DNA of 64,000 nucleotides, from positions 1 to 64,000 of the forward strand of contig MU858216.1 in assembly GCA_033297075.1 (NCBI GenBank). The letters run 5' to 3'. A program made the translations under genes and the position numbers. Shown piece after piece: positions 10,444-59,531 of this stretch. Position 1 is the stretch's first letter. Each line of letters opens with the position of its first letter. The DNA comes from Rhypophila decipiens. Taxonomy: Eukaryota; Ascomycota; Sordariomycetes; Sordariales; Naviculisporaceae. Below the pieces are notes generated by a model that made no database searches, was not told where the DNA came from, and was given only the letters and a program-made list of their open reading frames with translations.

Positions 10444-10599
10444 ATGGGTGCGTTGGATGCTCTCCCGAAAATCCCCCTAGAGGAACCATTGATGATTGAC
10501 CTGCCTCAACACATTGTCGACATTACCAAGCAGAACTTTGATGGCCTAGACAGCATAATCGGCTCTGGGCGCGATTCACCACCAGCTCAAGCCTCATGA
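10444..10599 (+). promoter_or_regulatory. Upstream ORF overlapping the next start codon
   Basis: An ATG-initiated frame of 51 codons (starting MGALDALPKI) ends in a TGA that overlaps the ATG of the following gene as ATGA at 10596-10599. If transcription begins upstream, ribosomes would meet this frame first, and termination-reinitiation or leaky scanning would be needed for the main protein. An alternative is that this is just chance in an untranslated leader. Confidence 0.4.
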
Positions 10600-12272
10600 T
10601 GGATCCTCTAGCCATAACCGGGTCGTCAATCAGCTTGGTGTTCACCATCTACGGGCTCATCGCAAAGACCCGCGACTTCGTTGGGAAATTCAAAGAAGCC
10701 GAGAGCGATGTCAGGGCCATCACAGGAGATTTGGAGGCTGTTACTCGGATCCTCCAGTCCATTGCAGACAACGACGATGGCAATGGATACCCCTTGGTCA
10801 GCGACCCAAACTTTGATCGTTTGGTGGATGACACGATTGCCCACTTCAAAGAGGTGGTGTCAGAGGTAGAGGCATGCCTTTGTCGATATTCTCAACAGTC
10901 TTTCAGAAGCAAGGTGTCCTGGGCGGCATCAGGTCGAGAAGAGATGACAAGGCTACTGGGGAAGGTCAAAATGCACAAGTCCACCCTAGAGCTTGCCCTG
11001 AGCCGGGCTCACATGTTAGTTTCCGCCCGACGTCTTGAAGTTGGCTGTTACTAACATCTGCCAATCTAGGGCACACGGTGTCGAAATCAAGTCCGGAATA
11101 GAAAGTCTCGGCGTGGATATGCACTCCAGACTGGCCGAAATAACGGAACAAGTTCGCGAACTCCATGCCAGGATGAAGACACCAGACAACACATACGACC
11201 CCAGGAAGGTCAGGTTGACCCAGAGACTAGAGGAGCATCTGAAGCTTACAAAGCAGCGCCTCCAGTTTCCTGTGGCTGAAGGGACAAAGGATGCAGAGAC
11301 CATCTCCAAGTTCGTCAGCGGGATATCTAGAATAAGCTCAACGCGCCACCAATCTCGGCGGCACTCGGTCGATGAGACCGAAGCCAGCCTTGAGAGGCTG
11401 TTTGCGGAGCTCGACGCCACACCAAATGTTGCAACCACGGAGCCTTACTTGTCCGAGCCGAGCTTGGGGATGCGTGAGCGAATAAACAGGTTCCCTAGCC
11501 AACCGTGTCTCTCGGGTATCATAGATTCGCGGCGAGGGGGGACTGAAAATGGGTGGGACCACCGGCGTGGTTATGCTGACCATTTTCCAGACATCAATTC
11601 CGATGATCCAATGTCCTTTCAAATGCTAGCCACCGAGCCCGGAACCGCGCGGGAAACAGGAAAAGAATCCTCTGGACCGTGTGTCCAGCCACAACCTCAG
11701 CCCCGTATCTCACATCCGCGATTCGTCATCTCAACGAGCCCATGGCACAATATGGACAGTTTGCCACCATACCAACTAGTTCACAAGGTGCAACCGAGAA
11801 TGCTTTTGCCATCGGCGCGGCCTATAGGGAGACTAGAGCACTGTGCACTCTGGAGGAGCTGAACCGCAGGTTGACGTTGACAGCATCACATACAAGCACG
11901 GATAAGCCTTGTTCCCTGCTTATGATGCGGCGCAAGTTTGACCGCGATTGGTACGAAGACCTAGCAATTGAGGAATGGAAACTCTCGCTTGGCAGTTCAT
12001 GGGAAGAGATATTTCGGAAACGCGAAGAGTTCCATGACAACACCCAGCAACAGTGTAATTTGATTTATCTGGACTTCGTAAAACCGATTCAGCAACGATG
12101 GCTTTTTGACCATTTGTTGTGGAGGGACGACGTTGCGGGACGCATTTACCGTTTTGTGGTCATAGAGGTGAGCATCACTTACATCCATACCAATGATCAA
12201 GCAACTAAAAGGCGATTTTGGGTTACAGAATGTGCAACCCCCGAGGTCGATACAGACGCCCTGTACGCTTAA
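10596..12272 (+). CDS. Protein with fungal STAND-type N-terminal domain
   Basis: Exon 1 (10596-11014) joins exon 2 (from 11070) across a 55-bp GTTAGT...TCTAG intron. The first ~140 residues (MMDPLAITGSSISLV, then FKEAESDVRAI and helices with VVSEVEACL) match the helical domain found at the N-terminus of fungal NOD-like STAND proteins (PigL_N type), which mediates signalling or oligomerisation in heterokaryon-incompatibility-like systems. A Ser-rich linker follows, then a conserved-looking segment with KFDRDWYEDLAIEEWKLSLG and HLLWRDDVAGRIYRF. The frame must change between 11606 and 11862; an intron 11553-11629 would do this, but so would a frameshift. No NACHT, NB-ARC or repeat domain follows. 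The 3' end is uncertain: a different frame continues to 12670. Confidence 0.55.
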
Positions 12273-14061
12273 TAAACTGTTATATGTTTTTTAACAAAGG
12301 AAAGGACAGTCACAAGCTACCCGCCCTTGTCGAGAAAATCGTTGAATCTTGGCAACCGACCCTCAATTTGTGTCTTCCCCCCGGAACAGGGATTGAGATT
12401 CTGAGCAAGCGTCGAGCAGATCGACTACGGTCCAACGAGCCTGCCCAAAGCTTCGTAGATGCGGCACAGGAAAACTGTGCATCATCACGACTTGATCTAG
12501 GACCTCAGGTATCCGCTGCTGGGTCGGAATCGTTGGAGGCGAATACTGAGCCAAACATTAACGGCTTCCTCCCGCAGAGAGATCAATGCTCAATTGTCAA
12601 CTGGTGGATTCCTCCCAGCCCGCCGAAACGAAAGCGGAAATTCCTTGGGTATTGGGCCTTTCACTGGTGATGATATCGGCGTCGACATGGAGGCGGGGAG
12701 ACCTGGCGACTGCGCACTGAAGTGGATCCATTTAGTCGTCGACTCTTTATTCTGAGACGACAGCGGCGCGTATGTTTCTCGATGGGAGTAGTGGGTTTGG
12801 AGTATGGTCCTTTAGTACTGAAAGCGGCCGGATTCGATGTCACGGAGGGTAGGGTGATAATGTATCTCAGAGGGAATTTTCAGAGAGTAGAGATGGGGTC
12901 AAGGGATAACACACCGGAAATGCGTGACGTTCAGCGTCATGTTCACGCCTGTTTGCGTGCGACGGAACTTTTGGTCAGAAGGGGTCTCCTAGAGAACTGT
13001 CCTTGTGGGTGTGTTTTGGTCCTTTTAACGACGTGATGAAATCTATTTCTTTTCCATGACGTGGGAGGTATTGCCAGTCATGGCTCGACAGGACAACGAC
13101 GTGTAAATGTACGGTATGTACCAGATTCATCCCACATCCACACATTTGCTAGCGTGCCTTTCAGTTGATTCCAAGGGGAGGAAACCAGACCTTCTGGCTG
13201 ATTTTTACGGACCGCAATAGCAAACCATGGAGTAAAATTAAGCGCGTTGACATTAGAGAAAAATTGACAGCTTCATCTCACACAGTGAGTACGCATATCC
13301 GCCAGCCTGTCATCCTTGTAAGCCAAAAGTCCAACAATAAGTAGGCAAACCAGAAAGAAAAGACCGAAGAACATCGGGGAGTGTCTAAGCATTTTCGCAC
13401 CAAAAGAAGCACCTGAGGAAGATGGTACAATTTATTATTTCTTTCCAACCCATATTTTAGCCAGCTCCTTCGGGCCTTCCCCAGTCATTTTTTAACTGGA
13501 AAGGACCTTCAGGGACCTTATGCTCATCTGAACCTGGTGACATTGAAAATGACCATATGACAGTCGCGCTGGCGTTCTGTGGGCATCTTCCTCTCGGTTA
13601 CTAGGGGCAGCAGATTCCCCTTGGTTTCAGCTCATCACTGCTTCTCGGAATCCAAAAGATCAGAGACAATGACCGCACCCATAATTAAATAGAATAATAA
13701 CATCATGATCATGGTAGTTCATTGCCGAGCTGATATCGCTCTTTCTCATGCTTTGATATTCATAAAAGAGCCGCAGCAAGTGGCGCAGGCAGCATTGCAA
13801 GCAACAAACACGCAAAATTCATCCCGAGTTCGTCGTCCATGTTTGAAGCCACCCGGCCTCCCTGCCTGTCTACCGGGCTAGTCTCTGCGTGCTTCTCGGG
13901 TAGTGTTGATCAAGCCAATATCAGTGCCTCCCGCGAGTCCCGAATTTCTCCTTCTCCTCTTCTTTTTTTCCTCACCCAAACAAGAAGCCATCACCGTCAG
14001 TACCCCGACCACAGCAGTGTGTTTGATGAGATTCACGATACTGATAGTACTCTTTAAGCAG
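12273..14061. other. Possible 3' end of STAND-type gene, then intergenic
   Basis: From 12212 to 12670 another frame is open (with a KIVESWQPTLNL segment and basic PPKRKRK near the end) and could be a last exon if a 44-bp GTGAGC intron at 12168-12211 with an AAG acceptor is used. Beyond 12700 I see no gene. The region from about 13840 is pyrimidine-rich and leads into the mini-exon array. Confidence 0.35.
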
Positions 14062-16557
14062 ATTATTATCACCAAGTACTCGACGCCGTCGACTTTCGCG
14101 TAAGTTGCACCCTTTGTCCCTCTGCGGTTTCGCGACAACATCGTCGCAAGAGGCGAAACATCGCCGGTTTTGCACGACTCCCTCACATTTACCTATCCAT
14201 CTATCTACTTCACACCATCCTCATCTTTCCCGTCACTGCCTTTGGGATCTGCTTGCTTGCGGCATCTAGATGCCCCTTCTCCTTTCTCAAACCGCTTATC
14301 TTTTACCGCCGGTCGCGTCTGCACATTTCTGCAACCGTGCTTGGCTTTACCACCTTTTTCCCTTGCCCACCAAGCCAGGATTCTCCTTCATTCTCTACAT
14401 CTGGTCGAGTACTTGACTGACATCTTTGTTTTGGCAGACCACCAATTACTATATCGTCGCTGCCCCCGGGCTTGTAAGTTAAGGTCGCTCCCCCAGTGAA
14501 ATGCCATGTACTGACAGTTGTCTATTCCCAGCTTACCAAACAAATTACCTTCGGCTTCGGCTTCGGCCTCGTAGGTGGCGTCGTTCCTGCCCTACCTGAT
14601 AACACGAGGCGAGCTCCAAGATGTGGTCGCTAACAGTTCTTCCAACAGCAATCATAACCTTATCCTTCGGGAACCTGTAAGTCCAAGCCTCTGTGAGCCC
14701 TTTTGTCGTGCCGTTTCAACCAAGAAACTAACAGAGGCGGATTTGCAGAACTATAAACAAATATCATACCGGCGATTCGCCTCGTACGTGGCTCCTAGGC
14801 GACTGAAAGCCGTTGATGTTTACTGACCGTAGTTCTCAGACACATATCTCTACCCACCTCTACCTACCTCGGCTTCCGTCCTTCTAGTATGTACTTTTGC
14901 CAAACCATCCACACATTGGAAATATCCTGACAGCGTTCTCTTTGCAGATTACCATACTCATCTCCTCCGGCTCCGGCCAGTAAGTCTGATTCGTCCCTGC
15001 TGCCTTTTTCGACAAGGCTAACATTCCTCTGGCAGATTATTATCGGTTATTATACCATCGCCCTCGGGCCGTACGTTTCGCATGCCTCCTGCTTTGGCAA
15101 TCCACCTCCTCGATGGTTTCTAACCTGGCTGATAACAGTATTATCACACGCCTAAAGCCTCGCGGCTGTGAGTGACCCCCTGCCCATCTGTCTGGCCGGG
15201 CCATGCTAACTTGTCGTGTCCAGATATTTATCTCTACGCCCTCGGGCTGTAAGTCCTGCTTTCAACATATATACCGGGCATTCATTGACATCATCGGTTC
15301 AGCATATTACCCACCTCTCGCCTTTCGGCTGTAAGTGCCACTTCTTTCTGGTATCCCCCTTTGAGTTGTGTGCCACGGCTAACATCTTGCTTGCGCTTAG
15401 CACATCTTTACACGCTCACGAGCAGTACGTGCTCTGTTTTTGCTCTCCTTTCACGAGCATGATCAACAGGCTGGACAGAAACTGACATTTTGTTTCCAGT
15501 ATCGACATATCCCATCGCCTCTCGGCTGTAAGTGACTCGCCCACCATCCTTGTCAAATGCATTGCTAACATATGTTGTGTCTTTAGATCAACCTTGACTA
15601 CGCCTACCGCCAGTACGTCTTTTGCATTAGCACATGTCACTCGGGAACAGTTACTGACATTGTTGGCTAGTATCAACAATCCCTACGCCTCTCGGCCGTG
15701 AGTGATATCCTGCTCTTTTTTGCTGGGTCTTGACTAACATTTTGTGTTCAGACCTATCATAACGACGGCTACGAGCTGTATGTCTGGCTCGAGCATTCCT
15801 TGTTCCTTCGATAATTCAGCGGCTTCGTACTGACAGCCGTAGGATCAGATCTACCATCAGCCTTTCGCCCCGCGAATGTGAGTAGCTCATTCTCTCCGGG
15901 TGTGAGCTGGCCTTGGACATTTGCTAACGGTGTGGTTCTCAGATATCCCCATAAAGCCAACAAGCTGTACGTCTCAGCAGTCCTCTACAGCCTCGATCTT
16001 TACTGACGCAGTATCTGCAGACCAGACATACCAATTCCTCTCGTCTACGTCTTTCGGCTGTAAGTCTATCAAGTCTGCGTTTCCGCTGATATTGTCTTGA
16101 TGACTGTTGCTAACAATGTGGTGCTCAGATTATTACATCTCAAAGCCCACGGCTGTACGTTCAGCCGGACCTTGGTTCTCTCTTTGTGACCTTGTCAGAG
16201 TGCTGACATGTCGGTGCTTACAGACTATCTCTCGAATTTTCGGACCCAGCGGTAGGTTTTTTCTCTCTTGCTTTGTGCTCATTCGGAGGTCTTGTTTAGG
16301 GTCCAAACGCTCGCTAACACTTTGCTTGAACAGAATCATCTCTCCATGTAAGCTTCTGTTGCTATCCTGTCGCCAAAGTCATCCACCGTGGCGCAAGGCT
16401 GTAAAGTATCACGGTCTTCAGAGCGAACCACATCTCCTCTCCTTGCTTTATTCTTCTCATTGATTTCCCGTACCCCTTATTATCAGTTTCCAGCACCTTC
16501 TTCACTATATCTGGCCTTTGAAAAAGAGATATGCTAACCATATTTCTTGTTGTTCAG
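14062..16557 (+). other. Array of ~21 mini-exons with minimal introns
   Basis: Canonical donor (GTAAGT, GTACGT, GTGAGT), branch (GCTAAC or ACTGAC) and acceptor (YAG) signals alternate with striking regularity. They delimit mini-exons at 14062-14099, 14438-14473, 14532-14570, 14649-14676, 14749-14783, 14840-14886, 14948-14979, 15036-15070, 15139-15167, 15224-15248, 15303-15330, 15401-15424, 15500-15527, 15587-15612, 15671-15697, 15752-15777, 15843-15877, 15943-15966, 16021-16059, 16129-16154, 16224-16251 and 16334-16347, then a final exon at 16558. Most introns are 54-82 bp. Many mini-exons start with ATTAT/ATATC and end CTCGGCT or TTCGGCT, so they look duplicated from one exon-intron unit. 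Exon lengths are not multiples of three. One frame stays open from the first exon to a TGA in the exon at 15587; no frame runs through the exons from 15587 to 15966. Whether this is coding, a leader of the next gene, or a non-coding transcript is open. Confidence 0.7.
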
Positions 16558-16574
16558 ACCAAACTTATATCAAA

Positions 16575-17759
16575 ATGTCGTCTCCCGTTGGTTCGGTCTC
16601 GGCTTCGGCCTCATTTCCTGCTGGCTCTGCCAGCTCTGCTGCTCCTGCTCCTGCTCGTGTTGGTGGTCCTATTCGCAGCAGAGCTGGTAGGGCTGGCGAC
16701 AACAACAATGCTGGTCGTGGTGTTGGACGTGGCGGAGGACGGGTTGGTCGTGGTGGTGCACGTGGTGCTGCTGGTCGTGGTCGCGGAGGTGTCGGCGCTG
16801 GTGCCCCTGCCGCTGGCGCGGCCTTCGCTCGCGGAGGTCGTGGTAGAGGTGCCGCCCGCCCTCGGGGACGACATGCTCGTCGCCCTTCTCCTGCTCCCTC
16901 GTCGGGGGCATCATCATCGTCGGAGGATCCGTCGTCTTCGTCTTCGGACGATGATGACGAGGACAGCGACGGTGGTGTCTCTGACGCGTCTGCGGGCTCT
17001 GCCGACGGGGGCGACAACGCTCGCCCGGCAATCTACCGCCGCCGCAACGAGGTAGATTGGCGGGACCCCGTCGTGCAGGCCGAGATGCTGGAGCTGGAGT
17101 TCGACCCGGCCCGCCCATACGCGCCGCTGGCTGCGCATGAGCTCCCTCGGTTCCGGCGGGAACAGGAGCCATCGCCCTACCTGGAGGTGACAACGTGGCA
17201 GCTGGGCCTGGTCGGCCTGCTCTACCCGGAGGCCGAGTTCTTGGTGTGCCGCTTGCCGGTCAGCCCGGGGAATCAGGTCCTCCTGGTCAAGGGCAGGGGA
17301 CTGGCCCAGCTGGGGGTCCTCGCGGTTGGAGAGCCCTTCGCGTTTGTCGCAGATGCTCCAGGTAGGATAGGCCAGCCTGGCGCGGATGGAAGGTACCGCG
17401 TGCACCTCGACTTCAGCATCTTGCGCTTCGGGGTCACCCTGGTTCGCAGGGACTGGCCCCAAGGAGAGGTCGCCACCCTCTCCGACGGGGAAGCCCATAC
17501 TCAATTTGTCCGGCGCGTGTTCAACACGTTTGGCTCGCTTCCCCGGGAGCGCCTGGTGTGGTCGGCGCAAGTAGGACAGGGCACTCCCAGCAGGAAATGG
17601 TTGCGGGCTTTCGCGCCTGCCAATGCACAGCAACTCCCTTCGGACGAACAACGCAGTGCATGGATCTTCAGTCAGCCGGGCGTCATCCGAGAGCATCCGT
17701 GGCAGCGCCAGCGGATGATATTCGCCGCTGCTGCTGCTGACCCTTGGGGTGGCGCCTAG
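16575..17759 (+). CDS. RG/RGG-rich and acidic protein, unknown function
   Basis: The last exon of the array (from 16558) carries an ATG in a CAAAATGTC context and an open frame of 394 residues. Order of parts: Ser/Ala-rich start; residues ~45-110 with many GRG, RGG and GRGRGG repeats; a Ser-rich stretch merging into an acidic run (SSSDDDDEDSD) near residue 135; then a folded-looking C-terminal half of about 250 residues (WRDPVVQAEMLELEFDP, TTWQLGLVGLLYPEAEFLV, RDWPQGEVATLSDGEAHTQF). RG-rich tracts bind RNA and are targets of arginine methylation, so an RNA-binding role is a fair inference; I do not recognise the C-terminal domain. The frame stays open upstream into the array (QTYIK) without another ATG, so upstream mini-exons would be leader sequence for this start. 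Confidence 0.7.
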   Translation: MSSPVGSVSASASFPAGSASSAAPAPARVGGPIRSRAGRAGDNNNAGRGVGRGGGRVGRGGARGAAGRGRGGVGAGAPAAGAAFARGGRGRGAARPRGRHARRPSPAPSSGASSSSEDPSSSSSDDDDEDSDGGVSDASAGSADGGDNARPAIYRRRNEVDWRDPVVQAEMLELEFDPARPYAPLAAHELPRFRREQEPSPYLEVTTWQLGLVGLLYPEAEFLVCRLPVSPGNQVLLVKGRGLAQLGVLAVGEPFAFVADAPGRIGQPGADGRYRVHLDFSILRFGVTLVRRDWPQGEVATLSDGEAHTQFVRRVFNTFGSLPRERLVWSAQVGQGTPSRKWLRAFAPANAQQLPSDEQRSAWIFSQPGVIREHPWQRQRMIFAAAAADPWGGA

Positions 17760-19092
17760 GCCGCTGGCGACGCATGAGGGCACTGCACTGGTGGGGGTGT
17801 CGCGGCCACTGACAACCCTGTGGCCTCTGCCACGAATGGATAACTGTTGGGGAGGGCTGGGCAGGACGGTGTATGCTGGGGGGAGGGGGGGGGGGGGGGA
17901 TGTGGAAAGGGCTGGGATAAAACGATAATAATGAAGAAGAATTTTGGTGTGCGTCGCATAATGATTGTTTTTTTTCCGTGAGAAAAAACGTTCAACCCAC
18001 TTAAACGCTGTTAATAATAGTTTCAAGAATCTATAAGCTATGGGACAGACTTTGATATTCGACCACCGGCTCCGGAGCCTAGGCCCGGAGTGTCCAATCA
18101 GAAACCTTATTGGCATGTCTTTCAGCCGCAGCGGACTAGGCCCGAAATAGTAATCGTTACTCTTGTTTTCACATCACTTCTGCTAGCTTTCTGGAATCCT
18201 CCTCATCCTTGTTGTCTTTATCCTCTTTAACGACAAGCTGGGCTGAGAAGCTTCGGGTTTCTTCTCTCCCAGATCGATACGACGTGCAGCGGCTGAATTT
18301 GCGACACCCGGACTCGTTGTCGAATACTGTTGGTGTGGGTGCGTCATGTTCGACATGTTCCGACGAGGGGAGGAGGCCCCTGAGTCGATAGCAGGATCCG
18401 CGAGTCTTCCGATATTCTTGGTAAGTCGAGTTCTAGGGATAGTTGCTGTTCGTTTGATGTCACGCGCAACTAACCAGGCCGTTCATATCACGGCGCTTAG
18501 TGTCATGGCAAAGCATTTTCTGGGCTCTGCTCGGGGCCGTCTTTACCATTACGCTGCAAAACGCCGGGAACATTTCTGGTGTATCGGAAGATGCTGAATC
18601 TCGAGACGGTGTGGAAAGGACGGAAACGCCTGGCTGCCCTGGGAGGAGACCGTTCTCAAGCTTGCCATGGGCCTGGTCAAGGCTTTGATATCGGTGATGG
18701 CAGGACAGTAGGACTGACCAATGAACAGCGTTGAAAAACTCGGAAAGGATTGTTGCATGACCTTGTTTCTTGTTCTGAATTTCGTGGCTTTTCTCTTTAT
18801 TATTGCGCTGCGGGACCGGGAACCTTCAAACTGGAATGGGCAGACAAGCTGGGTTCCAGGTTAGTGTAGGGACAGACTACAGTACTTTATTGTGTGATAG
18901 CGTGTCAGCGATTATTGTTACGCGGTCGGGAAACAAGGAAGGAATGGACCTGTGTAAGAACGGGCTCATGTTGTCGTCATCGGCTCAACCCTAAGCTTCC
19001 TGGGCTCATGGTGTCCCCACAGGCCACATCACATCGAACCTGGACGGGAGTAGAGGGTCTGCCTCTTTACTGCCCCCACCACGAGAACAAAA
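17760..19092. other. Intergenic with a poly-G tract
   Basis: Downstream of the RG-rich gene there is an uninterrupted run of 15 G at 17885-17899, preceded by other short G runs, probably in the 3' untranslated region. Apart from a doubtful two-exon frame listed separately, no gene is supported. Confidence 0.5.
18346..18597 (+). CDS. Doubtful two-exon small protein
   Basis: An ATG frame (MFDMFRRGEEAPESI) runs 25 codons to a good GTAAGT donor at 18421; a 57-bp intron with a CTAAC branch ends at 18477, and the frame continues for 39 codons to a stop, giving 64 residues with a basic C-terminus. The splice signals are good but the peptide shows no recognisable motif. The first codons also lie in an open frame through the intron. 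Confidence 0.2.
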   Translation: MFDMFRRGEEAPESIAGSASLPIFLVSRVLGIVAVRLMSRATNQAVHITALSVMAKHFLGSARGRLYHYAAKRREHFWCIGRC

Positions 19093-46880: not shown

Positions 46881-49575
46881 TTACAGCTCATGTGTCTGGA
46901 AAAAGTTGTGCCATGGAATTTGGCAAACATCCGTTGGTCCCTTTTGGACTTGGAGGTCCCACATAGACTGTGCAAAGCAGAGTGTTAGCAATTCGGATGT
47001 CAGTTCCTAGTCAGGATGGTGACGAATGGCTTACCCAGTCCCCTGTCACGCTGGCTTCCACAATGCCGTCCATCAGATCCTGCGCCTGGCCATCCAGATC
47101 GGAGAGCCAAGTCTGCGGTGCTTGTCCCAGCCCTGTATTATCCGCAAAGTCCATCGAACCCCAGTTGGGAGTTTGCGTCTGGGAGGAGCCGCTGAGGTCG
47201 AGCGGCGCAGTTGACATGTTCGATCCTGTACGTCGCGTCAGTCGTCCTGTCTGCAATCTTGTGTCCCATAGCGCAGGTTAAATAAAAAAAGGCCTACCAG
47301 TGTCGGCGCCGAAATGGAAAAATGGAGGATAAGCTGCCATGCTCTCTTCCATGTTGAGCTGGGGAGCTGCCCCTGTCGACTCGGGGCTGCTCTCAAACGC
47401 AGTCCCCGTAGACTCGTTGAGCATTCTAGTCAGGATCTTGAAGCCCTTGTTCGCCTCGGCCGAGTCCTTGCGCATCGACTGCCATATCGACCTGGAAGTC
47501 TGGAGTATCTCCATGATCTGCTCTTGGGACATGATATCTTTGCTCGTGTCTTGGGCGAAATGTTTCATGACCTCGGGCCTCGACTGGGGATTCCTCTTCC
47601 TGGCATTCACGAACGACAGCTCTAGGCAGAGAATCATATCGGCGAGGAGAAAGTCGTGGATGCTCAGACTGGTAATCAAACCTCGGTCTTTGGCGAGGCG
47701 GCCACCAGGCTGAGTCTCACAGTGAATATCGTACTGATGCTTCAGGATCTGGGTAGCCGCGTCGAGGCAGGTTCGGCGCGAGTATTCAAAGCGCTTGTCC
47801 ATCCTCCCACGGGCAAGGAACTGGCGGTGGAGGATCAGGCGTGACTTTTGGTACGTGAAGTCGAGCCAGTACCGCTGCATGATCAGATCGACCGGATCTG
47901 CCAGGGACTGGCTGAACGAGCGGTGCTGGAGGATCGAAGGCGTGGTCTGGTGGGCTTCCTCCAGCCGTTTATCGAGACTGGCAAAGGTTGCATACGTCAA
48001 GCCGTCTCGCGCATTCAGTGCTGAAGTAATGTCTCCAAAGACACGCAAGAGGCGCGCTTTGACAATAGTGTGGAGGCAGATTGTTCGTTCGGTCTCGGGT
48101 CGCGACGGCGGCAGTTCTTTGGAGTCAACGTCGAAATCGGTGTCGTGTAGGTTGCGGGGGAGTTCGGTATCGGCAATTCCGGGATGGACGTTGCTGGGCA
48201 GCCCGAACTGGTACGAGACCAGTCGATCAATCTCTGTCAGCAGCATCCACGCCCTCCGGCGCATCTCTCCTTCAAAGGGCGTCATGTCAGGGTAGTGCTT
48301 GGGATCTCGATGCATGCCCATATGCATGGCAAGCCGGACCATGATGGAGAGAATGATGGAGCAGCCTAGGGGACTATCGTTCTTTTGAAAATACTCGCAG
48401 CCAAAGTACAAGACCAGGGCCTCGACTTTCCATTTTCCAGGGGCCGAATAGTCCCCAAGGCAGAGGCAATGAGCAGCGTATCTCTTGAACGTTTCAAAGA
48501 CTTGGCGCGGAGGGCCCAAGTTGCCGGGCACCTCGTCCCAGTCCTTGGAGCGTTCGCAGTCAAGCGCTGCGTACGATGCCATGCAGAAAAGCAGGCCTAT
48601 CCAGGAGTATGTGGCCTGGCTTTTATCCCGCCAAAACGCGTCGTACTCCCTGAGAAACGATGGGACATGATAGACGACCCATCCCGGTTCGGGGATTTGA
48701 AAAAGACGAGAAATCAAACGGTCAAGCACCGGGCGCGGTGGAAGGAGTGCGGCGAGCTCAGAGACTGTCGCGTACGGGAAGCCACCAGCAAGCAAAGAAA
48801 TGTTCTTTTGTGCCGGCGGAGGCTGTTCTGTGTAGTCCAAGTCGTCCGATTGTTCGTGCGTCTTTAGGTCGTTGGTCAGGCTGACGATCTGTTGATGGTA
48901 TTAGCCTTATGGGTGACGGAACAACAGCTTCTTGGGTCTGATCTGGTGCTTACATCGTCGAGAATAGACTCCCAGTTGGCTGCCTCGACATATCTCTTGT
49001 CCTCGGTCAAGACCCCGGCGAGCTTGTTATCGCAGTGGGCGGGGAGGCGTTCGTCGTCTTCAGGTTTGGGGCTAGCCGCCGCTACCGTGCTTGACTCGGC
49101 TGCGTCGCGTTTCTGAGACTTGAGAACCTGCACAAGGTGTTCCAGGTGCTTGAGACGGGAGTGCATGGCGGGTTCGCCAGCTGGAACCTTTCCCCGGGGA
49201 CCGGGACCAGGACCGGCGGAGGATGGGCTCCCCGGCGCGAGTGCCTCTCTTGCTGTGCCATTGGCCCCAGGCCGAGGGTTTACGTACGGGACGAACCTGC
49301 ACGAATCCGAAAGGTGTCGCTTCTCGCACTGGTCGCAGGGGGACTGGCGATTACATTTGAGTCTATCACGCGTTGTTAGAGGTTTGGGTACAACAATAGA
49401 ATGGGCCATATGCTTACTTCTTATCCCGACATGACGTGCAGGAGAAACGAATACGGTTCCTCTTTTTCTGTTCCGAAAGACTGCTGGAGGTAGAGGTGGT
49501 GTTGGTCGTTGTAGCTCCGGCGCTGGGAGGTAATTCCGGGGACCCCTCAGCGGAGTTGGCAGTGGTTAAATCCAT
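46881..49575 (-). CDS. Zn2Cys6 fungal transcription factor
   Basis: Five exons (49418-49575, 48954-49362, 47298-48888, 47035-47225, 46881-46967) give 811 residues. The binuclear zinc cluster is split by intron 1 and has its six cysteines at about 46, 49, 56, 62, 65 and 74 (CTSCRDKKLKC, CDQC). A linker with a coiled-coil-like HLEHLVQVLKSQ follows, then the fungal-specific middle domain (WIGLLFCMASYAAL, YAAHCLCLGDY, SIMVRLAMHMGMHRDP, RRRAWMLLTEIDRLVSYQFGLP). The C-terminus is acidic with NWGSMDFADN. Such proteins are nuclear activators or repressors of metabolic genes; the target is unknown. The ATG at 49575 is the first in frame. A last coding exon of 28 residues is supported by a CTAAC branch and CAG acceptor. 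Confidence 0.9.
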
Positions 49576-50605
49576 GGATCTGGGCAGCTGTTCTTGGTAC
49601 AGCGGCAACACGCGTCTAGGCCTGGGACAGCTTGAATTCTTGTTGGACTAAGCGAACCACTTGACGGGAAAGCTCTGTATCGACAGGTACGATGAATATC
49701 GCTTGATCTCAAATTCTGAATTTTGCTGGACGTGGTTTAGGTCTTTTCTTACTCAGCAGCATCTCCGTTCCGTCTCGGGATTATGTGTTGCACCGAGCTC
49801 CTGCCCTTATCATGGCTGTAGGATTCGTTTTTGTGGGCGTTAATGGGCTCGAGCTTGGCCCCTGCAACATGGGACTGCTGTCAGTTGGATCACATTCGAG
49901 CTGGTCTTTTCTTACTCAGCAGCATCTCCGTTCCGTCTCGGGATTATGTGTTGCACCGAGCTCCTGCCCTTATCATGGCTGTAGGATTCGCTTTTGTAGG
50001 CGTTAATGGGCTCGAGCTTGGCCCCTGCAACATGGGACTGCTGTCGGTTGGATCACATTCGAGCTGGGAGGCAGGACAGAGACTTCTCACGTTGCAATTG
50101 GTCTCTGTTGAACATGGCCTCTGTTATCGACGCGAGATGATATATCTAGAGTGAAGGGAAGACCTTTGGTAGCCATAACGGCTCGTTTCTCTGGCCTTGA
50201 CATGGCTGCTTACAAATTACATGTACGAAACTCAGCGCAGTTCCAGTCGTTGCCCGGAGATAAACAGTTGGGGTCACGGAACGAGAAGAGGGGAACTAGT
50301 GCGAATAAACAGCGCCGTAAAATCAAAGGAAGAGCACTAGTGAATTCCAGTCCCAGCGTAATCGCACTATTCAGGGGTCTCCTAGAGTGACTGATCCGCC
50401 ACAGGGATCCGAGCCAAGCGGGGAGCGTTGGACTTGTTTGGTTTAGCGTGTGTGCCCCAAATCCTTAGCTTGCGTCAGCTGCTGCAAACCCCAACGCCAC
50501 CATCTCCCGGCAGTGCTGTCAACAGAAGCCATCACCAACTTTACTACTGCTGCGACTCCACGAAGCCATCTCCTCGCGCATGGTACAAACACTTCGTCCT
50601 TCGTC
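49576..50605. other. Divergent promoter region with tandem duplication
   Basis: Lies between the Zn2Cys6 gene (minus) and the EI24-like gene (plus). Apart from the duplication listed separately no coding region is supported; ORFs across the repeats differ only because of the repeat. Confidence 0.5.
49741..50066. repeat. 163-bp tandem duplication
   Basis: Two head-to-tail copies, 49741-49903 and 49904-50066, begin GTCTTTTCTTACTCAGCAGC and end in TTCGAGCTG plus G. I count only three differences between them, so the duplication is young. It sits in the upstream region of the Zn2Cys6 gene and may change spacing or dosage of its control sites. Confidence 0.95.
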
Positions 50606-54190: not shown

Positions 54191-57100
54191 ATGCGCATCA
54201 AAGCATCTGTCGGGGTCATTGCAGGCCTGGCCTGCTTGACCGCTTCTGCCGTCGTTCGCCGCTAGTAAGTCTCTTTGGTTTCGGGCTTTCAGCCTCATCC
54301 GCCATTTCAGCACAGATCACTAACACTTTCACAGTGACGGGGACACTACTTGCACTACCACAACCACCGACCGCTCTCCGTTGGTTGTGACCGCTCCTGA
54401 GGCCGGCTCAGATGCCACCTCGAACGCTGTGCTCACCTTCACCATGTCTGCTGGCACTCCCGGCATGACTGGCGCTTCGGTTTCGTCTTCTGCCATCTCG
54501 GCATCGGTTCTCACATTCACCTTGTCTGCTGGCACTCCCGGCATCACTGCGTCTTCGGCCACTACCTCGATCGATGCTATCTCTGGTTCGGCTGATGCTT
54601 CGGCTTCGGCTTCCGTTTTCACTGTTACCGTCCCCGGTGTCACCTCTGGCACTTCCGACACCACTTGCACCTCTTCGGACATCTTCACTCCGGGCGGATC
54701 TACATCAGCCGCGTCTGGACCTGTCACGGTTACAGTCACTGAGATGCCTTTTGGACCGACTCCAGACGTCAGCACGGTCACCGTTCCGGTGGTCACCATC
54801 ACGCTGCCGGGAACGCCTCCCCCGGGATGGCCTTTCGCTTCGTCGTCGACTCCTGCAATCACTGCACCTCAGCCAACCGGCCCAGCTGGTCCTCTCGTCA
54901 CCCTGACCATCCCAGGTGGCAATGGAGGCTCCGGTTCAGACATGACCATCACTGTGCCTCTGGCTTCAATCCTGCCATCTTCGACTGCTGCAATCACTGC
55001 ACCTCAACCAACCGGCCCAGCTGGATCAGTTGTCACTGTCACGATTCCTGAGGGATCTGGCCACACTGCAACCATCGTCCTGACCATCACCGTTCCGGAC
55101 GGCGGCCTTGACTCTTGGTCGACCATCATCACTGTCCCGGGAGCAGCTGGCACGCCAACAGGCCCCATCGTCACCGTCTCTGCCTCGAACACCCCGGGTT
55201 CGGTTCCCACCCTCGATACCACCTGTACCTCGGTCTCTCAGGCATCAGACGCGAGCAACCTTCCAACCGGCCCCGAATCGGCCATGACGATCACTTATAC
55301 GCTGCCGATGGAGAGTGGCATGACTTCGCCCTCAACCGGTGTCATGACGATCACGCTATCGCCTCCCGTGTCGGCCCCCGTCTCGAACGGACCATTTGGA
55401 TCGTGGCCAGCAGGCTCTCCGATGCCCACCTTTGGTCACCACAGCTCTCCATCTGTCGGCCCAGCCATGCCTCCCAGCTTCTCCACGACGTGTTCAGAGA
55501 GCGTCATCACATTCACCATCCCGGCCATGGGTACTTACTCCGCATACACTGGCACCTTGACGCTCTCAGACAACGCCCCGCAGTTGACTGCGACTGATGC
55601 ATCTCCAGCTGTCATCACCTTGACGTCTACCGTTCCCGCTGCCGGCCAAGGTTCCCCAAACGGAGAGTCGGGGACCCCATCATTCTCGACGGGCATCCCT
55701 GGACAGATTACGACTACCCTTCTAGGAGAGACACTCACGTTCGCCGGATCTACGCTCCCCACTGGTCCGTCGCCTTATATCAGCCACAGCGCTGGCAACG
55801 GCCACCCCACGCAGTCATCCAACGGCGGCGAAGGCAGCTCGAGCTCCAGCGACGCTAATGTCTTTACCGTAACACTCCCCGGAGGCCAAGGCGTCTCGTC
55901 TGCCACTGACAGCATCCCATCCGAAGAGACTTTGACGCTCTCGGTCTCTCCATCCGTCAGCGGCCTTCCCGGCTTGTTCACTGTGACCATTCCTGAAGGC
56001 TCAGGCTCGCCTGGATCTCCCAATGGTGGATCTACCGGCACCAACACTGGCGTCTTCACTGTCACAGCGTCGGTCACTCATGGCACATCGTCCTCTCTCG
56101 CCGCTACCGACTCTGGAATGTCTGGTTTCACACCGTCGGTCGGCACTGTCGCTTACACGATCCCAGCTGGACCTGCCGGCCCTGAGTCAGCTTACACCGT
56201 GACTTACACTGAGTTTGTCCCAGTCTCATCCACTTCTGGCTCTGGAGCATCGCCTTCTGAAGTCCCAGGATACGGCAGCCCAGGCATTACATCTGGCTCG
56301 TCTATCGCCACACCGTCTTCCGCTTCAGGACCTGCGGTGGTCACTTTGACGAACGAATCTGGATCACCCACAGTCCTCACTTTGACGCCAAAGGGGTCCT
56401 TCACATCTACCAAGACATCTGGATCTGGCCTCTCGCCCGTGACAGTCACCATCACGGATGCTTCAGGTTCCCCAGAGGTCCTCACTTTGACTCTGCCTCA
56501 GGGAAGCTTGCCTGCTACTGTCACCTCTGTGGTTTCGTCTACTTCGCAGCCTGGCTCTGGTGCCACTCCTGTGACATACACATTCACCGATGCCTCTGGA
56601 TCGCCCCATGTTGTCACCCTGACACCCACTGGAGAAAGCCAGCCTTCCACTGTCACATCTGTGTTTGCTTCGGCCTCGATTCCGGGATCAGGCACATCGC
56701 CCTTGACAGTCACCATCACTGATTCTAATGGCCTGCCCCACACTGTCACGCTCACCCTCTCTGGCGAAGGCTCTGTCCCCACTGAGACATCCACAGTTCC
56801 AGGCTACGGCAATGGAGGTGGAAATGGTGGTTCGACCCAATCTGTCATCACAGTGAGACCTCTTTCCGGCACTCCGTTTGTGGCCACGATCACTCTGAGC
56901 GGTGGAGCTGTCCCGACTTCTACACCCGAGTCGAGCGAGCATCTGTCTACCGTCACCATCGAGCAGTTTTCGACTTTGACCTTTGGCACCGCCAGTCTTT
57001 TGACCGCCACCTTGTCTGGCTCTCCGATTGTCTTGACGATCCCAGTCGGCACCGGAAAGGCTTCAACCGCGACTGCATCCACCCAATCTGGCAGACCTTT

Positions 57101-59531
57101 GACCACGATGACCATCCCCTTTTCTGGCTCGTCGACGCGCCCAACCGGCTCAGCTGGATCGACTCCAAGCGTCGTCACAGTGACTCTGCCCAACGGCTCA
57201 CCTGTCGTCGTTACCATCCCTCTCGGTGGCTCATCAGCAACCGTTCCCGGCGGAGCAGGCGGCCCTACCCCGAGCGTCCACACTCTGACCTCTTCGGCTG
57301 GTTCGCAATCCGTTATCACCATTCCTCTGACCGGCGAAACATCGACCTCGCCTGCAGGATATGGTGGCGCTGGCCCGTCTGGAAGCCTTGTCACTGTGAC
57401 TCTGGACTCTGGATCACCTATTGTGCTGACCATCCCCCTTGGCGGACACTCTGCAACATCCTCGGGTGTTCACGCAAGCACCGTCACCGAGACTGTCGGA
57501 TCGTCTTTGACCAGCGGCCTCGCCCATACCGCGAGTCTCATCACGCTGACCCTCCCATCGGGATCACCTATCGTCGTGACTGTTCCACTGAACGGCGGGT
57601 CTCAGGGCATTCCCACTGCTACCGGTCCGGCTGGATACGGTGGATCGCCGGCTACAATCACCGCCCCATCGGTTGTCACGTCTGCATCTACAGGCTCCAA
57701 TGGTCATGGAACCGTTTCCGTCTCGGGCATCACGCTCACCGAGACAGTCCCCATTGGCACTGACGGCTCTGTCACGGTTATCCAAGTCACCACCGAGGTC
57801 ACACTTGGTCCCAGCTCTGTTGGCAAATCCGCATCGGTTTCGACCCTTGTTCTCACACCGACAGTCATGACCTACACCATGCCCGGCGCCTATGGCCACG
57901 ATGGAACTGTTCTCACCGTCAGCACCAACGTTCCCGTCTCGACGCAGGCTCCCTCGGTTGAGGTGCTCACCTTTACTCTGCCGACTGCTGCACCGTCGAC
58001 TATCGCTTCGACCAGCACTTGCACGTCCGACCAAGATGCGTCTGCCGTCCAACCTGAGCAGGGATCCAGCACCGCAGAACTTTCTGTCTCGGTCATCACC
58101 ATCCTTCCCGCGTCTGCGACCGGCACGACGTGCACCACGTTCACCACAGTGGTTCGATCGTCTAGCAAGCCCGCTGGCTCTGATTCAGGCGAGGTCTCCG
58201 TCGTGACCGTTAGCCTTGGATCCGGATCGTCTACCGTCCTCACAATTCCATTGGGAGCAGCAACTGCTACACAAAGCAGCTCTACAACTTGCACTGACAC
58301 TTCGTCGACCGTTCGAACCGAGACCGTTACTGTGGGCCAGGTGACCGCTGCTGTGACTGTTTTCACTTTTTTTCCTGATCAATCTGATACATCATCGGTT
58401 TCCGTGGATGCTGTCGGGGCTTCTTCGGTGGCTTCAGAATTGCTCCCTCCCCCGCAGACAGAGTTTCTCGGAGCCCAGTCTACCGAGGACGTCCCAGGAT
58501 ACACCTTCGCCACAGCTGAACCCGCCGCTTACGGCAGCCCTGTTCCGGCTTACGGGTCTTCTCCATCCAGCACCAGTGCTGATGAGCCTATTCAAGGTAG
58601 TGAGACCAGCACTCTTGTTGCGCCGACCATCACTTTATCCACTCTTGGATCAGCCAGTGCCTCTTCGGACGATCAGCCGACCCCTACGATTGATACAAGC
58701 ACCGACTCAACTGCAGAGGGATCGACCAGCGCGACGGACGCAATCTCTGCCACCGTCTCGGCTCTGAATGCCACCTCCACTGAGGCAGCAAGCGCTTCGG
58801 CTTCGCTGAACTCTACCAGCCTGGCCACAGTTGCACCGACTGCCACTGGCTCTACCTTGCCTGCGGCATCCTGCGGCTCGACTGGAAACCACGGACAGTC
58901 TGTGCTTACCTTCGACGACGTTCAGCCCAGCAATGACACTAGCTCTGACACTCAGGTATCTGTCGACATCCCTTCCACATATCGCCGCTTCCAGCTCTCC
59001 GGTGGATTCAGTGTCGTCGCCTCGTCCAATTCTCGATATGCAGCATCATCCGGCAATCAAATGATCGCATACAGTGCATCTTCTGCTCCCATCGCCCAGA
59101 TCAACCTGGCAGACCAGGGATCCAATGCATGCTTCAGTTTCGACTTTCTGGGAATCAGCTTGGGATGCAATGCGACTGGCGCTGACTGCAACTTTGCCAT
59201 CACTGGTGTTCAGTGGAATGGCACACACGAGATTGCCCAGGCGAGCAAGACCATGCAGATCGCTGGCTGCACCGAGACGTCCAACTGCACGATGCTTCAC
59301 CAGAGTCTGGACTCGGCGGCTGCCTCGCAGTTCACCAATCTGACTGCGCTCAACATCTCGTTGACTGTCGACGGCCAGCCTCAGGCTTGGTGGGCTGATG
59401 ACATGTCTGTCGCCTGGACCGATAACACTTGCGAGGGGACATCTTGCGGGGCTGTTGTGCCTCCCGTCCAGATCATGGTGCTCAACTCGCGCCGTGCCTT
59501 TAGCAAGCGCGTCCTCCGGTGGATGGCTTAG
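54191..59531 (+). CDS. Giant Ser/Thr-rich secreted adhesin- or mucin-like protein
   Basis: Exon 54191-54264 encodes a signal peptide (MRIKASVGVIAGLACLTASA) and joins 54335-59531 across a 70-bp intron; the product has 1756 residues. Almost 1,500 residues are Ser/Thr/Gly/Pro-rich, built from degenerate units of about 35-45 residues with cores such as GSPxVVTLTLP, SPVTVTITDASGSP and PSVVTVTLPNGSP. Isolated CTxxxxA-type TTCT motifs recur. The last ~200 residues form a distinct Cys-containing domain (VLTFDDVQPSNDT, PSTYRRFQLSGGFSVV, GSNACFSFDFLGISLGC, QAWWADDMSVAW) that I think matches a fungal domain of unknown function (DUF7371-like). No C-terminal GPI-type hydrophobic tail is visible. Likely heavily O-glycosylated, at the wall or outside the cell. 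Confidence 0.88.

Follow-up and report, generated by a model that had tools for sequence, protein, structure and literature searches.

What could a row of 22 very short exons, placed directly in front of a single open reading frame, be for? In the window, the whole stretch of 64,000 nt analysed here from Rhypophila decipiens (Rhypophila is a genus in the Sordariales, isolated from dung), 22 mini-exons alternate with 22 introns on the plus strand at 14062-16557 (Table 1). The exons measure 14-47 nt, with a median of 28 nt and a sum of 669 nt; 20 of the 22 introns fall between 54 and 82 nt, the exceptions being intron 1 at 338 nt and intron 22 at 210 nt. Donors read GTAAGT, GTACGT, GTGAGT, GTATGT or GTAGGT, with GTAAGC once, and branch sites (CTAAC or CTGAC, TTGAC once) lie 9-20 nt upstream of the intron end; small U2-type introns are the best explanation. 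A sequence-only reading of this DNA had described about 21 mini-exons of 14-48 nt with intact splice signals, separated by introns mostly of 54-82 bp, and its coordinates and architecture hold, with 22 exons in our count. Its remark that exon lengths are not multiples of three is also borne out, only 6/22 being divisible. The ATT/ATC starts and CTCGGCT ends that it took to be common were overstated: by our own reading of the exons, ATT or ATC opens 5/22, CGGCT closes 5/22 and CTCGGCT closes just exon 13 (1/22); anywhere in the exon, CGGCT is found in 9/22 and TCGGCT in 5/22. G is the last exon base at 1/19 array positions versus 20/59 at other intron-like places in the genome (p = 0.016), the latter being matches to splice signals and not proven introns.

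The array is genuine and lies well outside what chance would give. A rule-based intron finder chained 20 introns in a row within it; under the same rule the minus strand of the array and either strand of the remaining window gave a longest chain of 1, the 40 strands of 20 control loci (200 kb) from the same genome gave 0 or 1, and none of 500 first-order Markov shuffles went above 2. A three-signal pattern had six matches in the window, all inside the array, against 0.14 expected. The donor-branch-acceptor pattern matched 112 and 135 times per strand, exceeding the 47 and 57 matches of the reversed pattern, so splice signals of the array type are the usual ones in this genome; the unusual thing is the row of introns, not the individual signals. 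These chain and pattern controls, and the conservation in two relatives described below, oppose any reading of the array as a decaying region or a chance run of splice-like signals, for which we found no supporting point and to which we assign a negligible probability.

The last array acceptor (16557) opens an exon with an ATG at 16575 and an intact ORF of 394 codons, a direct lead into a gene that the sequence-only reading did not mention; canonical splice signals join the array to this coding exon. We suggest that the array is probably an expanded multi-intron 5′ untranslated leader of the gene starting at 16575, as its exons precede the start codon with no competing AUG. One transcript would span array and ORF and would be spliced as drawn in Table 1, its leader interrupted by 22 (or possibly 23) small U2-type introns and expanded by tandem duplication, with a unit of two exons and two introns in the 3′ half. 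On the spliced leader, C/A/U-rich and free of AUG, ribosomes could scan through about 690 nt before reaching the main start. Intron composition is closer to the usual, and 14/22 introns contain ATG, so that each of these, if retained, would put upstream AUGs before the ORF. Protein output would then likely require the leader to be spliced almost completely, whether or not intron-mediated enhancement also contributes. Intron effects on expression are possible, and the leader may almost as well have grown neutrally, as a tolerated sequence, as under selection for a function.

The product of the ORF, which we call the RGG protein (394 aa), has arginine-glycine-rich and serine/aspartate-rich stretches in its N-terminal part. 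No Pfam domain was found in it, a comparison with the PDB gave no convincing match (best E 0.57), and an AlphaFold2 model from a 6-sequence alignment had a mean pLDDT of 35. Its best match, V8F06_006592, is 98% identical and labelled Rhypophila decipiens; further homologues come from Rhypophila sp. PSN 637, Naviculisporaceae sp. PSN 640 and two more. These matches place the window in Rhypophila, in R. decipiens or a close relative. Both the label of V8F06 and its belonging to the same species as the window are uncertain because one strain formerly called R. decipiens is now R. myriaspora (PMC12734299). A run of 15 G occupies 17885-17899, in what is presumably the 3′ UTR of this gene.

Table 1. 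Proposed parts of the mini-exon array and the adjoining RGG gene. "Both" means matched in the deposited proteins of both relatives, V8F33_005754 and V8F06_006591.
Feature	Position	Strand	Evidence and remarks
E0, tentative first exon	13940..13995	+	C/T-rich; perhaps near transcription start; read from sequence
Intron 0, tentative, 66 nt	13996..14061	+	Weak non-consensus donor GTCAGT, branch TACTGATAG, acceptor AAGCAG; read through by PSN 637 gene model
Exon 1	14062..14099	+	Splice signals; both, different frames
Intron 1, 338 nt	14100..14437	+	Branch GACTGACA
Exon 2	14438..14473	+	Both
Exon 3	14532..14570	+	Both
Exon 4	14649..14676	+	Both
Exon 5	14749..14783	+	V8F06_006591 only
Exon 6	14840..14886	+	Both, different frames; apparent 2-nt insertion in V8F06
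Exon 7	14948..14979	+	Both, different frames
Exon 8	15036..15070	+	Splice signals only; in neither relative's protein
Exon 9	15139..15167	+	Both
Exon 10	15224..15248	+	Both
Exon 11	15303..15330	+	V8F06_006591 only
Exon 12	15401..15424	+	Both, different frames
Exon 13	15500..15527	+	Both, different frames
Exon 14	15587..15612	+	V8F33_005754 only; holds sole frame-0 stop of spliced array
Exon 15	15671..15697	+	Splice signals only; in neither relative's protein
Exon 16	15752..15777	+	V8F06_006591; borderline in V8F33_005754
Exon 17	15843..15877	+	Both, different frames; alternative acceptor 6 nt downstream possible
Exon 18	15943..15966	+	V8F33_005754; borderline in V8F06_006591
Exon 19	16021..16059	+	Both
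Exon 20	16129..16154	+	Both
Exon 21	16224..16251	+	Both
Exon 22, 14 nt	16334..16347	+	Splice signals; too short for conservation rule; V8F06_006591 reads on into intron 22
Introns 2-6	14474-14531, 14571-14648, 14677-14748, 14784-14839, 14887-14947	+	Donor/branch/acceptor table, chain test
Introns 7-11	14980-15035, 15071-15138, 15168-15223, 15249-15302, 15331-15400	+	Donor/branch/acceptor table, chain test
Introns 12-16	15425-15499, 15528-15586, 15613-15670, 15698-15751, 15778-15842	+	Donor/branch/acceptor table, chain test
Introns 17-21	15878-15942, 15967-16020, 16060-16128, 16155-16223, 16252-16333	+	Donor/branch/acceptor table, chain test
Intron 22, 210 nt	16348..16557	+	Donor GTAAGC, branch TGCTAACC, acceptor GTTCAG
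Last exon	16558..17759	+	17-nt leader end, ATG 16575, intact ORF, stop TAG 17757-17759

Two relatives carry deposited gene models that translate the array. V8F33_005754 (Rhypophila sp. PSN 637, 690 aa) runs through the array into the RGG protein; V8F06_006591 (V8F06, 628 aa) combines an upstream gene and the array in one model that ends inside intron 22, leaving the RGG gene separate. The fused upstream gene corresponds to open frames at 10542-12670 of the window, the first of which has a weak PF17111 match (25.7 bits, below the cut-off of 27.2). The comparison with related species that had been proposed could be made through these two proteins, by exon-by-exon placement in which an exon was counted as found if its match beat the best of 60 shuffles. 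Exons were recognisable, in order, for 16/22 in PSN 637 and 17/22 in V8F06; the 6/22 and 5/22 that were not found under this rule include exons 16 and 18, each of which narrowly failed it in one relative, and exon 22, which is too short for it, and the placements of exons 4 and 6 in V8F33_005754 overlap by 3 residues. Fourteen exons were found in both relatives and six of them (E1, E6, E7, E12, E13 and E17) lie in different frames yet are conserved, which argues for conservation of nucleotides rather than of protein. Because they are conserved even where the relatives' models read different frames, the array exons behave as non-coding sequence. A frame step between exons 5 and 6 in V8F06_006591 points to a 2-nt insertion in exon 6 of V8F06, or to a different splice junction in that model.

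How strongly the exons are conserved differs between the two comparisons. Counted as minimum nucleotide differences, which are lower bounds derived from the relatives' proteins, exons differ more than the CDS from V8F06 (14/510 versus 7/1182, p = 0.0006) and about equally from PSN 637 (34/471 versus 74/1161, p = 0.58). Against PSN 637, residue identity is higher in exons (132/151) than in the visible intron parts (36/54; p = 0.0016), counts that leave out 11 intron residues (10 aligned to intron 17, of which 8 fit exon 18, and one doubtful) as well as one start Met and 7 CDS residues. By our own reading, the tails of introns 1, 8, 9 and 18 in V8F33_005754 hold residues that fit a CTAAC branch; in the window, two of the four introns have CTGAC instead, which is a valid branch site as well. 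A YAG-compatible acceptor is present in 3/4 of these visible tails, intron 9 being the exception. The upkeep of splice signals claimed earlier is thus supported, mostly also in the sister species at the four visible intron tails.

The exons have a peculiar composition. The spliced sequence before 16575 contains no ATG in 686 nt, none of the 253 possible exon-skipping junctions creates one, and when the letters of exons 1-22 (669 nt) were shuffled 10,000 times, only 22 shuffles were free of ATG. Given the dinucleotides, this depletion is not striking (0 observed versus 1.05 expected), because TG as a whole is missing: it occurs 2 times in exons versus 23.0 expected, and 90 times in intron interiors versus 77.4 expected. 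Exons are also short of GT (7 versus 23.0) and AG (11 versus 20.5), and TA is in excess in the exons of 14062-16347 (52 versus 41), not in the introns between; the near-cognate ACG is not depleted (12). Avoidance of AUG and of cryptic splice sites accounts for this bias only in part, and not wholly for the missing CTG and TTG. Avoidance of TG seems to hold in the relatives too, since neither Met, Cys nor Trp occurs among the 157 and 170 exon residues compared. Repeat-induced point mutation was rejected as the source of this composition: most CA remains (48 versus 55.6) despite the loss of TG, and the introns between do not share the bias.

The array carries traces of how it grew. From intron 9 to intron 21 the branch sites switch between CTAAC and CTGAC at every step (permutation p = 0.0019), 7/8 donors that have C or T at position 4 occur with CTGAC (p = 0.006), and within exons 9-21 members of the same parity resemble each other more closely (p = 0.018). 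Over all exons similarity peaks at lag 2, with a mean z of 2.56; intron interiors, at a mean z of 0.53, have no clear period. From the branch alternation and the likeness of same-parity exons we conclude that the array, at least in its 3′ half, probably grew through copying of a unit with two exons and two introns. Repeated duplication, as put forward in the sequence-only reading, therefore stands, and its single exon-intron unit is better replaced by this double one (branch alternation, p = 0.0019). As for an introner family, intron interiors are hardly alike, and a DNA search of the species' own genome with the array, which detects close copies only, matched nothing but the array itself.

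If the exons were translated, the array would be a protein-coding gene of many mini-exons, as the relatives' annotations have it. Two deposited models do translate it, frame 0 of the spliced array runs for 144 codons without a stop and has a single one in 229, and exons are as conserved as the CDS against PSN 637, as a coding array would also show, a point that also weighs against the leader. Nevertheless, none of the exons has an ATG (a non-AUG start is conceivable), the three frames of the spliced array contain 1, 3 and 5 stops, and frame 0 is not continuous with the RGG frame; its scarcity of stops may simply reflect the rarity of TAG (0) and TGA (2) in the exons. The two models disagree on the frame of 6/14 shared exons, omit some exons and translate intron sequence, and both look like annotation errors; the apparent insertion in exon 6 counts against coding as well. 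We consider a coding array very unlikely. The alternatively spliced short peptides of the sequence-only reading are not supported on the same evidence, with no ATG in the exons, stops in all frames, conservation that follows no single frame and a probable 2-nt exon insertion in the nearest relative.

The relatives' models also bear on whether array and ORF belong to one gene, and here they disagree, which in itself counts against the leader. That of PSN 637 connects the array exons with the RGG ORF, in favour of a leader; that of V8F06 keeps two genes apart, as would be expected of a separate spliced lncRNA gene whose exon repeat is the functional RNA and whose neighbour, the RGG gene, has its promoter in intron 22. 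That intron is long and partly C/T-rich and might hold such a promoter, to the detriment of the leader reading, as is the absence of TG as a whole, which AUG avoidance alone does not explain. Exon conservation regardless of a single frame, and above that of the visible PSN 637 intron parts, is likewise compatible with a functional RNA. However, a non-coding RNA would not need to avoid AUG, a full branch site and acceptor stand 17 nt before the ATG, the array matches no Rfam family and the spliced RNA has an unremarkable fold (z -1.13 versus 20 shuffles), so we hold a separate RNA gene to be unlikely. At gathering scores Rfam gave nothing in the whole window, and its five weak matches in 13600-17900 (E 0.28-3.6) are all within the ORF. 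Known snoRNA host genes resemble the array in having many short non-coding exons, which would here be by-products of snoRNAs in the introns; but most snoRNAs need introns larger than 54-82 nt, a strict C box before a D box occurs in 0/22 introns, no Rfam snoRNA match appears in the array even at E 5, and the exons look better conserved than the introns, so that this origin can practically be dismissed. Exon-intron complements are in excess, with 52 7-mers versus 31.8 (sd 7.2) and 20 8-mers versus 7.7 (sd 3.7); as 11 of the 20 8-mer matches fall in intron 1 and we saw no pattern, base pairing as a guide to splicing was set aside, not disproved. We return to the multi-intron leader, for which a further elaboration may be imagined, in which it would be a splicing counter combined with a repeated RNA ligand. 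The nucleotide-conserved exons would serve as tandem binding sites, perhaps for the RGG protein of the same mRNA, and the AUG-bearing introns would cut translation steeply as splicing is lost, so that the RGG protein would regulate itself and report splicing capacity; this we regard as speculative and rather improbable.

Leader introns are common, and their function has mostly been asked one intron at a time. The array would be a natural series of about 22 tiny introns before one ORF, built up by recognisable duplications and free of coding constraint, in which intron number, order and loss would be directly testable, and it shows a route by which introns can multiply without new insertions. 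The locus also shows how gene models fail, the array being translated by two deposited models partly in different frames. Runs of many very short exons are known from aphid bicycle genes and schistosome micro-exon genes, and intron-containing units have multiplied in ascomycetes as introner elements and stwintrons. Schistosome micro-exon genes code for proteins, in contrast to the array with its lack of ATG and of a kept frame; the same difference separates it from bicycle genes, which are protein-coding (PMC9168663). Unlike introners, the array has exons that resemble each other more than its intron interiors do, and its introns lie side by side, whereas stwintrons are nested (PMC8469720). 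The 5′ UTR introns of filamentous ascomycetes are likewise small U2-type introns in an untranslated leader, from which this locus differs by about 22 introns in one leader, exons with a median of 28 nt and signs of tandem duplication; the descriptions consulted state no upper number for a single gene. The Xlr2 microexon of Trichoderma virens is, like those of the array, a very short exon in a filamentous fungus, and that paper states that functional microexons had not been described before in filamentous fungi; Xlr2 is, however, one regulated microexon of a coding gene, as opposed to an array of non-coding exons (PMC11121469). Among the titles and abstract openings listed in our literature search, which covered a minor part of the subscription journals, there was no comparable leader.

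Elsewhere in the window, two tandem copies of 163 nt with 98% matches lie at 49740-50067, near a minus-strand ORF (47281-48900) with a fungal transcription factor domain. A single open frame of 1735 codons at 54324-59531 encodes a Ser/Thr/Pro-rich product with DUF7371 (PF24086) at its end, perhaps, at a guess, a large surface protein.
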